The position numbers were made by a program, and so were the translations under genes. The notes beneath the pieces were generated by a model. That model saw nothing but the letters and a program-made list of their open reading frames with translations. It was not told where the DNA came from and made no database searches. From Deltaproteobacteria bacterium (lineage in GTDB: Bacteria; Myxococcota; Myxococcia; Myxococcales; 40CM-4-68-19), in the NCBI GenBank assembly GCA_005879535.1, contig VBKI01000084.1, positions 36,472 to 69,566 on the forward strand: a stretch of DNA of 33,095 bases, given 5' to 3'. Shown here in pieces: positions 13,290 to 19,026 of the stretch. How positions within the stretch are numbered: position 1 is the first letter of the stretch; each line of letters starts with the position of its first letter.

Positions 13290-14621
13290 TCAGCGGACTT
13301 CGGCGACCTTGGCGTTCTGGCGTCGCCGGAGCGCATCGCGCGCTTCGGCGGACCCGCACGCGCGCGCCTCCGCGGCGCCCGCAAGAAGGGCTCCGGCTTC
13401 CCCGCCGGTGACGAGCGCCAGCCGGCGCACCGCCGTTCTCCTCGCCGCGCAACTGGCGTGCGGATCGAGCAGGTCGGCGCGGGCCACGGTGAGGCGATCC
13501 TCGTCGGTGGCTGCGCCGCTCACCTCGAGGACGTGCAGCGCATCGTCGCGAGACCTCGCCCGCTCCGAGGAAAGCAGCTCTCGCAGAGCGGGCGCGGCGG
13601 CGCGGCCCATCTGTTCCCCGAGGAGCTTCAACAGCGGCGGGCGCCAGACCGGAGGAAACGCTTCCGAGTCGAGGAGGTCGGCGAGCGCCGCGATCGCGCC
13701 AGCGTCGAGGGAACGCGGATCGCGCTTGGCGGCGGCCGCGAAATCGGCGAAGGCCGGGCCGAGCTGACCCAAGGCGTGCTCCGCCTTCCCGCGCACGATC
13801 TGCACTTCCGGATCGTTCGCGCGCGGCGAATCGGCCAGCCGGTCGAGCTCCGCGAGCGCCGCCATCGGCTCGCGCGACTCCAGCAGCGCGGCCGCGCGCG
13901 CCAGCGGATCGTTCTCCGCGGCGCCGGAAACGTGCTCGCCGGCGGCAGCCGCCACCAGCAGCAGGCCCGCAGCAGTCCAGACCGCGCGCTTGCGGGCGAA
14001 GTCGAGTAGGGACTCCGCCGCCATCCGCAGGCGAACGGCGCGGGCCGGATCGGGAAGCCTGCGCAGGCGCGCCAGCGCGCGCCCTCCGTACGGAGCGATC
14101 GGGTCGGTGCCGCGCATCGCGCGGCGGAGCCGGATCCTGCCGCCGCCGTGGAGCGGGACCTCCCCGACCACCTCCGTCGCCGCTTCCGTCTTGTTCATCG
14201 ACAGGTACACGGCATCGGTGAGGACGACTTCGCCGGCTTCCGCCCGCGCTTCCGCCTCCAGCGCGAGCTGCATGGCCTCCCCGTGCACGTCGCCGCGCGA
14301 GCGCCGGACCTCGCCCTGGCTGAGCGCGATGCGGATCTCGATCCGGTCGCCGGGCAGGGCGCGGGCGTTCCAGGCAGCGAGGCGATCCTGCATCGCCATG
14401 GCGCAGAGGACCGCGTCGGTGGGAGAGAGGAAGGCGGCGACGAGCGCGTCCCCCAGACCCTTCACCTTGTGCCCGTGGTATCCGCGGACCACCGGCAGCA
14501 GCAAGGCGTCGTGGAGCGCGAGCATCCGCGCGTTCTCCTCGCGCGTCTGCCGGCTGGTGCGCTCGGTGAAGCCCTTCATGTCCGAGAGCAGCAGGACGAG
14601 GTTCTTCTCCGCCCGCTTCAC
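13290..14621 (-). CDS. Class III cyclase, C1-like subunit, membrane-anchored with a helical C-terminal domain
   Basis: This 443-residue protein has an N-terminal class III cyclase homology domain (5-150). It keeps both metal-binding aspartates: Asp14 in LLLSDMKGFT and Asp58 in VKGLGDALV, with Lys54 beside it, and Asp111 at the purine position. The transition-state Asn and Arg are replaced by Gln118 and Glu122 in GDVHGEAMQLALEAEA. A transmembrane helix follows at about 213-227 (VWTAAGLLLVAAAA). About 215 residues of helical, TPR- or HEAT-like sequence come next, probably outside the inner membrane if the cyclase domain is cytoplasmic. The GTG start at 14621 overlaps the TGA of the upstream cyclase gene (GTGA). 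Alone it should be inactive or weak, but it complements the residues missing from its partner. Confidence 0.85.
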   Translation of the reverse strand: MKRAEKNLVLLLSDMKGFTERTSRQTREENARMLALHDALLLPVVRGYHGHKVKGLGDALVAAFLSPTDAVLCAMAMQDRLAAWNARALPGDRIEIRIALSQGEVRRSRGDVHGEAMQLALEAEARAEAGEVVLTDAVYLSMNKTEAATEVVGEVPLHGGGRIRLRRAMRGTDPIAPYGGRALARLRRLPDPARAVRLRMAAESLLDFARKRAVWTAAGLLLVAAAAGEHVSGAAENDPLARAAALLESREPMAALAELDRLADSPRANDPEVQIVRGKAEHALGQLGPAFADFAAAAKRDPRSLDAGAIAALADLLDSEAFPPVWRPPLLKLLGEQMGRAAAPALRELLSSERARSRDDALHVLEVSGAATDEDRLTVARADLLDPHASCAARRTAVRRLALVTGGEAGALLAGAAEARACGSAEARDALRRRQNAKVAEVR

Positions 14622-15358
14622 GGTAGCGCTCCGAGCCGTGCCAGCGCGAAGAACGCCGTTGCCACCGCCATCATCGCCGCCAGGCCCGCGCCGATGAACA
14701 CGCGCAGCTTGTCGGGCAGCGTCGGCAGCGCCTCTTCCGCCTGCCGCGCCGCGGCCTGCGCGGCCGCCCGCAGATGGCGGGAGACTTCGCCCCGGGCCTC
14801 CGTTCCGTCCGGCGAGGGCAGAGGGCCGAGCTCCGGCAGCGGGGAGAGCGCTGTGACCAGCCGGAAGACGCGGATCGCCTCGGGCACGCCCTTCAGCCAC
14901 CGCTCTCCGGCGTCCTCCGCCTTGATCTCCGCCCGGTTCATCGACAGCCAGGCCGACTCGCCGATCAGCACCTCGCCGGGGCCGGCCACCGCCTCGATGC
15001 GGGAAGCAATGTTCACCGGCTCACCAAAGACGTCGCCGCCGGTCATCCGCACCTCGCCGAGGTGGACGGCGACCCTCGCCTGGAGCTGGCGCTCGGGCGG
15101 GACCGATGCATCGAAGCGGCGCACCCGCTCCATCAGCGCCGCCGCACAGAGCACCGCCTTGGTGGGCGAGTCGAAGGCGACCAGGAACGTGCCGCCGATC
15201 TGCTTGACGCGGCGCCCCCCGAATCGGCGGAAGGCGGGATCCACCAGCGCGGCGTGCAACCGCAGCATCCTTTGGGATTCTTCCCAGGTGAGCGCGCCGA
15301 GCCGCTCCGCGTATCCGCAGAGGCCGGCGAAGACGATGGCGAGGTTCTGCGACTTCAC
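14618..15358 (-). CDS. Class III cyclase, C2-like subunit lacking the metal-binding aspartates
   Basis: This 246-residue protein has a cyclase homology domain (5-145) clearly paralogous to the next gene; compare AVLCAAALMERV with AVLCAMAMQDRL. At the first metal site it reads VFAGLCGY (Gly12 for Asp), and at the second VKQIGGTFLVAF (Gly56 for Asp), so it cannot bind catalytic metal itself. It keeps Lys52, Asp109, Asn116 and Arg120 (GGDVFGEPVNIASR), the purine-specifying and transition-state residues. After a linker, one C-terminal transmembrane helix spans about 218-240. The start is GTG at 15358, with no obvious Shine-Dalgarno sequence. It lies 53 bp after prfC and is translationally coupled to the C1-like gene. 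The Lys/Asp pair predicts ATP as substrate for a heterodimer. Confidence 0.85.
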   Translation of the reverse strand: MKSQNLAIVFAGLCGYAERLGALTWEESQRMLRLHAALVDPAFRRFGGRRVKQIGGTFLVAFDSPTKAVLCAAALMERVRRFDASVPPERQLQARVAVHLGEVRMTGGDVFGEPVNIASRIEAVAGPGEVLIGESAWLSMNRAEIKAEDAGERWLKGVPEAIRVFRLVTALSPLPELGPLPSPDGTEARGEVSRHLRAAAQAAARQAEEALPTLPDKLRVFIGAGLAAMMAVATAFFALARLGALP

Positions 15359-15411: not shown

Positions 15412-16959
15412 CTATTTACGTTTCGACAGCGGAGCGACCGGCGCGGTCGGCGCCCACGTCCAGGAGGGATGCCGACCCGTCGCGTAGCTCAGATTCCATT
15501 CGCTCTTGAACAGTGCGATGGGGTTCTGGTCGCGATCCTCGACGCAAAGCGCGTCGACCTCCGCCTCGAACCGCGCCGCGTCGAAGCCCGGCCCGCTCAC
15601 CCAGCGCGCCACCTGGTACGGCAGCCTCTCCATCATCAGATCCGCCCCGTATTCGTGCAAAAGGCGATATTGCAGGACCTCGAGCTGCAGCGCGCCGACG
15701 GCGCCGACGATCGGGTCGCGCATGCCTCCGCCGCGGGCGTGGAAGATCTGGATGGCCCCTTCCTGCGAGAGCTGCTCGAGGCCCTTCTCGAACTGCTTGC
15801 GCTTGAGCGCGTCCTTTGCCCGCACACGGGCGAAGATCTCTGGAGAGAAGCGCGGCAGCTCCGCGTACTCGAAGGCCGGACCTTCGGAGAGCGTGTCGCC
15901 GATGCGCAGCGTTCCGGTATCGAACAGCCCGATCACGTCGCCGGGCCAGGCCTCCTCGATCACCTGCCGGTCCGCGCCGAAGAGCTGGTGCGGCATCGAG
16001 AGGCGGACCGGCTTCTCCTCGCGGGGGAGGCGCGCATCCATGCCGCGGTAGAACCGGCCGGAGCACACCCGCAAGAACGCGAGCCGGTCCCGGTGCGCGG
16101 GGTCCATGTTCGCCTGGATCTTGAAGACGAATCCGGAGAAGCGCGGCTCCATGGGATCGACCGCCGCGCCGTCGACGCGAATCCGCGGGCCGGGTGCGGG
16201 AGCCAGGCGCACGAACGCGTCGAGGAACTCGTCCACCCCGACCTCGGTCATCGCCGACCCGAAGAAGGCCGGCGACAGCTCGCCACGCAGCACCTTGGCG
16301 TGATCGAAGGGATCGCCCGCGGCCTCCAGGAGCTCGATCTCCTCGCGGACCTTCCCGGGCACATCCCCGCCGACGACCTGGCGCTGCCAGGTCGGATCGA
16401 AGAGCTCCGCCACGCCCTTGAAGTCCTGGCCCTGCCCGAGCGGCCAGGTGATGGGGCAGGTCCGGATGCCCAGCACCTCCTCTACCTCGTGGAGGTTGTC
16501 GAACGGCTCGCGGCCGAGCCGGTCGAGCTTGTTCACGAACGTGAAGATCGGGATTCCGCGCCGGCGGCAGACCTGGAAGAGCTTGCGGGTCTGGGCCTCG
16601 ACTCCCTTGGCGCTGTCGATCAGCATCACCGCGGCATCGGCGGCAGCGAGCGTCCGGTAGGTGTCTTCGGAGAAGTCCTGGTGGCCCGGCGTGTCGAGCA
16701 GGTTGATGCGGAAGCCGCGGTGCTCGAACTGCAGCACCGAGCTCGTCACCGAGATCCCGCGCTGCCGCTCCAGCTCCATCCAGTCGGAGGTGACATGCCT
16801 CTGGGCGCCGCGCGCCTTCACCGCTCCGGCGAGGTGGATGGCGCCGCCGTGGAGGAGCAGCTTCTCGGTGAGCGTCGTCTTCCCGGCGTCCGGATGGGAG
16901 ATGATTGCAAACGTCCGGCGACGCGCCGTTTCCGCTTTGAGCTTCTCTTCAGGCTGCAT
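15412..16959 (-). CDS. prfC: Peptide chain release factor 3 (RF3)
   Basis: This 515-residue translational GTPase recycles RF1 and RF2 from the ribosome after termination. It has G1 HPDAGKTT, the switch region RGISVTSSV, G3 DTPGHQD and G4 NKLD, and the RF3-typical start RRRTFAIISHPDAGKTTLTE. Later domains match RF3 in RFSGFVFKIQANMDPAHRDR and ending segments such as VGALQLEVLQYRL. The length is close to the E. coli protein (529). The start is fixed by the 12 residues before the RRTFAIISH block, the same number as in E. coli. The ATG at 16959 is only 9 bases after the tRNA-Ala 3' end and has no Shine-Dalgarno sequence. The C2-like cyclase gene follows after 53 bp. Confidence 0.95.
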   Translation of the reverse strand: MQPEEKLKAETARRRTFAIISHPDAGKTTLTEKLLLHGGAIHLAGAVKARGAQRHVTSDWMELERQRGISVTSSVLQFEHRGFRINLLDTPGHQDFSEDTYRTLAAADAAVMLIDSAKGVEAQTRKLFQVCRRRGIPIFTFVNKLDRLGREPFDNLHEVEEVLGIRTCPITWPLGQGQDFKGVAELFDPTWQRQVVGGDVPGKVREEIELLEAAGDPFDHAKVLRGELSPAFFGSAMTEVGVDEFLDAFVRLAPAPGPRIRVDGAAVDPMEPRFSGFVFKIQANMDPAHRDRLAFLRVCSGRFYRGMDARLPREEKPVRLSMPHQLFGADRQVIEEAWPGDVIGLFDTGTLRIGDTLSEGPAFEYAELPRFSPEIFARVRAKDALKRKQFEKGLEQLSQEGAIQIFHARGGGMRDPIVGAVGALQLEVLQYRLLHEYGADLMMERLPYQVARWVSGPGFDAARFEAEVDALCVEDRDQNPIALFKSEWNLSYATGRHPSWTWAPTAPVAPLSKRK

Positions 16960-17725: not shown

Positions 17726-18835
17726 CTACTGGTCGAACGACATGACCTGCAGGTGCGAGGCCTGCCAGTCAGCGGTCGGGTCGTACGAGAACGACATCGG
17801 CGTCCGGTACTGCAGCACGATGATGTGCTCGCCGGCCGCGAGCATCGTGTAGAACGTGCCCGAGGTGCTCGCGTAGACCGTGTTGCCCACCACCTGCTGC
17901 GATCCCTGCATGACCTTTCCATCGATCAGCAGCCGCGTGACGATGGCGCCGTTGGGCGGCACCGACAGCGTCCAGGCGATCGCCGCCGGGCCCGCGTTGG
18001 CAGTTGTCAGCGGGAGCGTGAGACCCGGGACCGGGCGCCAGGTGTTGTCCGGCGTGCTGTTCCAGGTCGCCGAGTTCACCGAGGTGATGTTGGGCACGCT
18101 GGCAGGACCCGCGGGGCCTTCGGGACCCTGCGGACCCGTGGGACCCGTCGCCCCCGTCGCGCCCGTCGCGCCCGTGGCGCCCGTGGCGCCAGCCGGACCT
18201 TGCGGGCCCTCAGGACCCTGCGGACCGGTGGCGCCCTGCGGGCCCTGCGGGCCAGCGGGACCCTGCGCACCCTGCGGACCAGCGGGACCCGCGGGGCCGG
18301 GAGGACCGTCATGACCCATCGGGCCGGCCGGGCCCTCGACGCCGATCGGACCTTGCGGGCCGGACGCGCCAGTGGCGCCAGCGGGACCCTGCGGGCCGGC
18401 CGCGCCGGTGGCGCCAGCGGGACCCTGCGGGCCTACGGCGCCAGCGACGCCTGCCGGGCCCTGCGGACCGGCAGCGCCGGCGGGACCAGCAGGGCCTTGC
18501 GGACCGGTGGCGCCAGGCGCACCCGCGGGGCCAGCCGGACCCATCAGGCCTACCGCACCCGCCGGGCCCATCGGACCTGCGTCGCCAGGGCTGCCTGCCG
18601 GACCCTGCGGGCCAGCGGGGCCTGCCTCGTTCCAGTACAGGGACGTCTCACCCGAGCGGCATGATTCGCCAGAGGCGACCACCCGCGGGTTGCCCTGTCT
18701 GTCGAGGCAGGCATAGATGACGCCATCCGGGCCGACGACGGGTGGCGGCCTCAGGCGTGCTGCAAACGCCGTCGAGGGCGCAAGGAGCGCCAGCCCGACG
18801 AAGAGCGCCCAGGACCGGATTAGGTTGGTCAGCAT
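17726..18835 (-). CDS. Secreted collagen-like protein
   Basis: The predicted 369 residues start with a signal peptide ([20 protein letters not shown], then STAFA before the likely cut). A short domain (26-71) has two cysteines, Cys43 and Cys59. Residues 72-246 are 58 uninterrupted Gly-X-Y triplets, mostly GPA, GPQ and GAT. A globular beta-rich C-terminal domain of about 120 residues follows ([19 protein letters not shown], then [14 protein letters not shown]), perhaps a trimerising head. Bacterial collagen-like proteins form triple helices at the cell surface without hydroxyproline. The ATG at 18835 follows GAGGGTG by 4-5 bases, which favours it over a longer frame. The gene ends at a strong terminator. 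The neighbours do not indicate a partner. Confidence 0.88.
18098..18622 (-). repeat. Tandem Gly-X-Y coding repeat inside the collagen-like gene
   Basis: This is a 525-bp run of 9-base-related units coding Gly-X-Y triplets, with near-identical blocks such as GGTCCGCAGG. A five-fold GAT run (GATGATGATGAT at protein level) lies around 18137-18187. The repeat is perfectly in frame. The near-identical units make length change by slippage or recombination likely. Confidence 0.85.
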
Positions 18836-19026
18836 TTTCACCCTCACTGTGGAACTGCGGCCATGCTGGCAAGGGCTCGCACGGTGCGTCAATGACACCC
18901 GCGGGTCTCAAGTGAGGCTGCCGGGGCGCCGCTGAGGGCGTGGTGTGGAGGGTGATCGAAGCTGGAGAAATGCGGGCGCGTGTGCGCTGTCGCACAAAAT
19001 TCAGTCGCGCCGGAAACTTGACGAGC

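Follow-up and report, generated by a model that had tools for sequence, protein, structure and literature searches.

Paired myxobacterial class III cyclase genes divide one set of active-site residues in a C1/C2-like manner and may encode a heterodimeric adenylyl cyclase

The window analysed here is a stretch of 33,095 nucleotides from a Deltaproteobacteria bacterium assembly (GCA_005879535.1, contig VBKI01000084.1, positions 36,472-69,566 of the forward strand); the host is a soil myxobacterium (Myxococcales; 40CM-4-68-19). On the minus strand the transcription order is prfC, gene A and gene B, the last two coding for cyclase-domain proteins (Table 1). At the A/B junction, CTACCGTGAAG, the TGA stop codon of A overlaps the GTG start codon of B by four bases, and the GTGA overlap read in the earlier note is thus as it had been described. 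A raw ORF caller puts the start of B earlier, at 14900; the start at 14621 was preferred because the overlap is conserved. Through this overlap, A and B would be translationally coupled. The prfC gene adjoins the pair as a conserved neighbour across the window's family, and is possibly carried on the same transcript. An SDR gene is found downstream, near B in 7/7 loci reaching that far, and the neighbours of the pair comprise prfC, oxidoreductase and SDR genes. A scan of the locus for promoters and terminators found nothing. Elsewhere in the window, an ORF with long collagen-like Gly-Pro-x repeats occupies positions 17726-18898 of the minus strand.

Table 1. Features of the cyclase gene locus, in positions of the window
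Feature	Position	Strand	Description
Gene B, putative C1-like subunit	13290..14621	-	443 aa; cyclase domain aa 6-168; TM helix ~192-226; alpha-helical solenoid 239-442
A/B start-stop overlap GTGA	14618..14621	-	junction sequence
Gene A, putative C2-like subunit	14618..15358	-	246 aa; cyclase domain aa 1-168; TM helix ~aa 219-237
prfC (RF3)	15412..16959	-	same strand as A, 53 bases upstream of A

Both proteins belong to the Guanylate_cyc family PF00211, with scores of 54.1 bits for A and 37.9 bits for B (gathering cut-off 21.9), and their cyclase domains are 40% identical, which bears out the earlier description of the two domains as paralogs. AF2 models of the halves show the cyclase fold. The catalytic columns were set by HMMER alignment to solved class III cyclases, 3mr7 in the case of A and Ma1120/4wp8 in the case of B. 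In A, both metal positions are Gly (Gly12 and Gly56), while the adenine and transition-state residues Lys52, Asp109, Asn116 and Arg120 are retained. B retains the metal pair Asp14 and Asp58, together with Lys54 and Asp111, and has Gln118 for Asn and Glu122 for Arg. The seventh residue, the phosphate-contacting Lys of the LKG motif, persists in A as K/R; most B proteins lack it, the window's among them, with His in its place and no LKG motif. The residue list given in the earlier note for both proteins is exact, as judged from the translations and the alignments to solved cyclases.

In bacterial class III cyclases that work as homodimers, a single chain carries both residue sets. Neither A nor B alone has all of the metal, base and transition-state residues that such a chain would need. 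The complementary loss leaves exactly one complete site across A and B, as in C1/C2-type enzymes, and the arrangement is conserved in orthologs. In class III sites, the metals are held by one partner and the base and transition-state residues come from the other (Broser review, PMC8815786). Lys52 and Asp109 of A occupy the purine-specifying positions, are invariant in eight A proteins, as in an adenylyl cyclase, and predict ATP rather than GTP as the substrate.

The window's family consists of 12 genomes in four genera, all of them related metagenome-assembled genomes. Searching for an adjacent pair with the same residue split, as the earlier note had proposed, recovered the A/B pair in 10/12 family genomes from three genera; both genomes of genus g4 are without it. 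In seven of the ten pair-bearing genomes both genes, or a fusion of them, lie on one contig, and in the remaining three they are split across contig ends. The residue split is present in all ten as far as readable, every readable junction is an ATGA or GTGA overlap, and no homologous pair was found in which each gene holds a full residue set. With the columns in the order metal 1, metal 2, Lys, Asp, Asn, Arg and LKG Lys, the family pattern is G/S/D-G-K-D-N-R-K/R for A and D-D-K-D-Q-E/Q/R-x for B, and that of full-set relatives is D-D-K-D-N-R-K/R, with one H at Asn. All eight A domains have Gly at metal 2 and invariant K, D, N and R; all seven B domains have invariant D, D, K and D and Gln for Asn. 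The two fixed catalytic changes (metal-2 Gly in A, Gln in B) therefore sit on opposite partners. Among 32 full-set relatives, 32/167 columns are invariant, all six catalytic columns among them.

Pairwise dN/dS values were 0.11-0.50 for A and 0.29-0.44 for B, rough figures since synonymous sites are partly saturated and GC-biased; on these estimates from sequence, both genes are under purifying selection. In searches that covered 145 genomes from the order and 195 from the phylum, the matches listed show adjacent pairs only in the window's family. Two copies in the family are interrupted by natural damage or assembly error: an A copy with an in-frame stop near its start (genome G008, loci L014/L045/L101) and a B copy broken near the middle (genome G006, locus L011).

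In genus g2 (genome G007, contig JANYKT010000145.1), A and B are joined in one 611-aa frame at locus L096:3995-5827 on the plus strand, with the same residue split as in the separate genes. The TM tail of A (~75 residues) is gone, and a short in-frame linker takes its place. A simple frameshift artefact is an unlikely source of this fusion, which comes from a single MAG, because the tail has been deleted and replaced by a linker that keeps the frame; there is no one-base slip.

The relationship of the two genes was followed in trees. In the full-length tree, A forms one clade (100/100) and B another (100/99), and the two clades share the order of seven genomes, ((G010,G008),(G007,(G001,(G000,(G004,G002))))). 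The C1/C2-like residue split pointed out in the earlier note is thus real, conserved and co-inherited. A groups with S, the single full-set genes of sister families, and B groups with K of Myxococcaceae (group f4, which appears to be this taxon) at 98/96. A recent tandem duplication within the family was considered and set aside: the AU test weakly rejects a joint A and B clade (p 0.035), and the full-length grouping of B with K and of A with S makes a fresh tandem duplication an improbable origin of the pair. The cyclase domain alone leaves this question without a resolved branching.

K proteins (loci L020, L017, L023 and L026 among others) have a Ser/Thr kinase - cyclase - TM - helical domain architecture, are monophyletic and are metal-only. 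Their metal Asp is present at metal 1 in 28/30 domains and at metal 2 in all, and the base-side residues are all lost (Q; S/T/A/G; E; A/S/T; no LKG). In Myxococcaceae, S and K genes are unlinked. Among the matches listed, 67 genomes of the order carry K, S accompanies it in 67/67 and K never occurs without S, a count inflated by the shared ancestry of the genomes; the pattern fits a requirement of K for an S partner. Within the window's family, a half-way state is found in genus g3, where A retains Asp at metal 1 and has lost metal 2 (D-G) and B retains Arg and has lost Asn (D-D-K-D-Q-R). The A protein of g3 also retains a C-terminal domain, which A of g1 has lost. Two further genes were seen in the family: genome G001 carries an additional unlinked full-set S-type gene (L049) beside its A/B pair, possibly on a contaminating contig, and genome G010 has another single-gene relative (G010:C570, L059) with both metal Asp and Arg and without Lys, Asp and Asn.

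Each protein has one hydrophobic segment following the cyclase domain (from residue 219 in A; within the helix 192-226 in B), in agreement with the earlier note. In the model of B, the cyclase is followed by a long helix carrying the TM segment and by an alpha-helical solenoid, and relatives give weak HEAT and TPR matches in this C-terminal domain. In most members the TM segment is preceded by basic residues, and nearly all members having the C-terminal domain share two Cys in it, ~31-52 apart (C391 and C422 in the window's B). By the positive-inside rule and the conserved Cys pair, the helical domain of B is most likely to be found on the outer side of the inner membrane, so any gating by it would have to cross the membrane.

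An AlphaFold model of the L096 fusion folded both halves (pLDDT 85, pTM 0.55), one of them from a single-sequence alignment, as MAFFT had stacked the A and B paralogs on the same half of the fusion. Each half resembles solved cyclases, with a TM-score of up to 0.93 by target length. Against the tandem domains of AC9 or sAC, the model deviated by ~17 A rmsd, and the catalytic dimer arrangement was not reproduced. This low-confidence placement of the halves marks a limit of the model rather than a refutation, because one half had a single sequence and because the short linker could force pairing between two chains.

The conserved split of residues between two coupled genes under purifying selection, the agreement of their trees and the fusion seen in nature led us to the reading that A and B probably form an obligate heterodimer in which one site is live and the other dead. 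The two would be co-translated and assemble as the chains of a single, membrane-anchored class III adenylyl cyclase, in whose productive site the Asp pair of B would hold the metals and A would provide Lys and Asp for adenine, Asn and Arg for the transition state and the LKG Lys for phosphate. The second site would be dead, with A offering no metal ligands and B neither Asn nor Arg. Despite their place in the dead site, Lys54 and Asp111 of B are invariant, a conservation suggestive of ligand binding there; they may hold a nucleotide or another ligand as a regulator. In mammalian enzymes, forskolin binds the degenerate site (PMC8815786). The outer helical domain at the C-terminus of B would send signals across the membrane along the single TM helix of each protein. 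The heterodimer proposed in the earlier note is thus supported; its obligate character, its single active site and the physical interface between the two proteins are inferred.

A and B have each lost catalytic residues, as would also be the case if they formed a membrane scaffold or ligand sensor that produces no cyclic nucleotide, the remaining residues being kept for ligand binding or for the fold. A class III cyclase-like ATP-binding protein has been solved (PDB 6yii), and bacterial relatives of uncertain activity exist. We nevertheless regard a dead pair as unlikely: losses on both sides of the complete site would then be expected, whereas the observed ones are complementary: throughout the family, one full set of seven residues is spared between A and B, and each of the two fixed changes affects a different partner. 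Still less probable is a variant homodimer in which B, with Gln for Asn, works by itself, A serving as its inhibitor or regulator. At the Asn column, the alignment gives Ala for Ma1120, an active adenylyl cyclase according to its PDB record; a Gln there therefore need not by itself inactivate B, and B of genus g3 (D-D-K-D-Q-R) retains Arg. In the window's B, however, Arg is replaced by Glu as well and LKG is lost, and A keeps N, R and K/R at LKG family-wide, residues that would be needless in an inhibitor. That A and B pair with other cyclases of the cell and not with each other seems to us scarcely credible. The genome does encode four further PF00211 proteins, and S and K of Myxococcaceae are unlinked, but A is linked to B by the overlap of their genes, by trees of the same order and by the fusion seen in nature, and the other four proteins are distant, the three in our residue table having full catalytic sets. 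The preferred reading remains the A/B heterodimer.

The roles of the C1 and C2 residues were reportedly established in work by Tesmer from 1997 and 1999. The proposed A/B enzyme resembles mammalian membrane adenylyl cyclases in that the metal Asp pair lies in one domain and Lys, Asp, Asn, Arg and Lys in the other, and in that paralogous domains form one live and one degenerate site (PMC9552081, PMC8815786). It differs from them in being encoded by two genes, or by a tight fusion of catalytic halves, and in having one TM helix after each N-terminal domain in place of 2x6 TM helices before the domains; the hexahelical arrangement is absent. With this other topology and a separate origin inside Myxococcales, A and B fall outside the animal C1/C2 family, and neither forskolin nor G proteins enter their context. 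Another two-gene heterodimer with a split active site is soluble guanylate cyclase alpha/beta, whose beta homodimer is inactive (PMC3591389); that enzyme is guanylyl-specific, eukaryotic and equipped with a haem sensor, whereas Lys and Asp of A/B predict ATP.

The same domain is found in the bacterial class III cyclases Rv1625c, Rv1900c, Ma1120 and CyaC; among solved structures, 3mr7 and Ma1120 are the nearest relatives. Unlike A and B, these four enzymes hold both residue sets in each chain and are homodimers, and a homodimer with two equal sites is the form described for bacterial class III cyclases (PMC9552081). The fungal NeoR/RGC rhodopsin cyclases are obligate heterodimers of cyclase paralogs; there, in contrast to A/B, RGC1 and RGC2 keep all catalytic residues (PMC8815786). 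The Pseudomonas aeruginosa protein 6yii has two cyclase-like domains, and the fused model matches it over both halves; sequence similarity is weak (E 0.05), and 6yii is annotated as a transcriptional regulator. The Pycsar defence cyclase PycC was considered and rejected, the PADLOC match being only 16.8 bits (E 7e-4) for B and absent for A, with no effector recognised among the neighbours.

A 2022 review stated that a fused dimeric class III cyclase was unknown in bacteria and asked what its advantage would be (PMC9552081). Since the bacterial two-domain protein 6yii exists, the L096 fusion cannot be claimed outright as the first fused bacterial cyclase. No natural bacterial heterodimer of this kind was found described in the open-access literature searched. 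What appears to be new is a conserved bacterial pair with complementary active-site loss, together with a series of intermediates: an unlinked full-set gene, a linked half-degenerate pair, a fully split pair and a fused pair. Such intermediates let both the advantage of a fused dimer and the purpose of the dead site be tested. They may also belong to a general two-subunit cyclase of Myxococcales, in which a metal-only B or K must pair with an A or S supplying base and transition-state residues, the window's family preserving steps of a separate C1/C2-like evolution (full-set ancestor, paralogous metal-only lineage, gene linkage, complementary loss and fusion); for this wider proposal we see the chances as evenly balanced.

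As possible cAMP receivers, the host genome has 18 matches to cNMP-binding domains, 16 of which exceed the Pfam cut-off. In the same genome, near G000:C50 80661-84528, a full-size cyclase gene lies with two cNMP-binding genes nearby, possibly a separate cAMP module.
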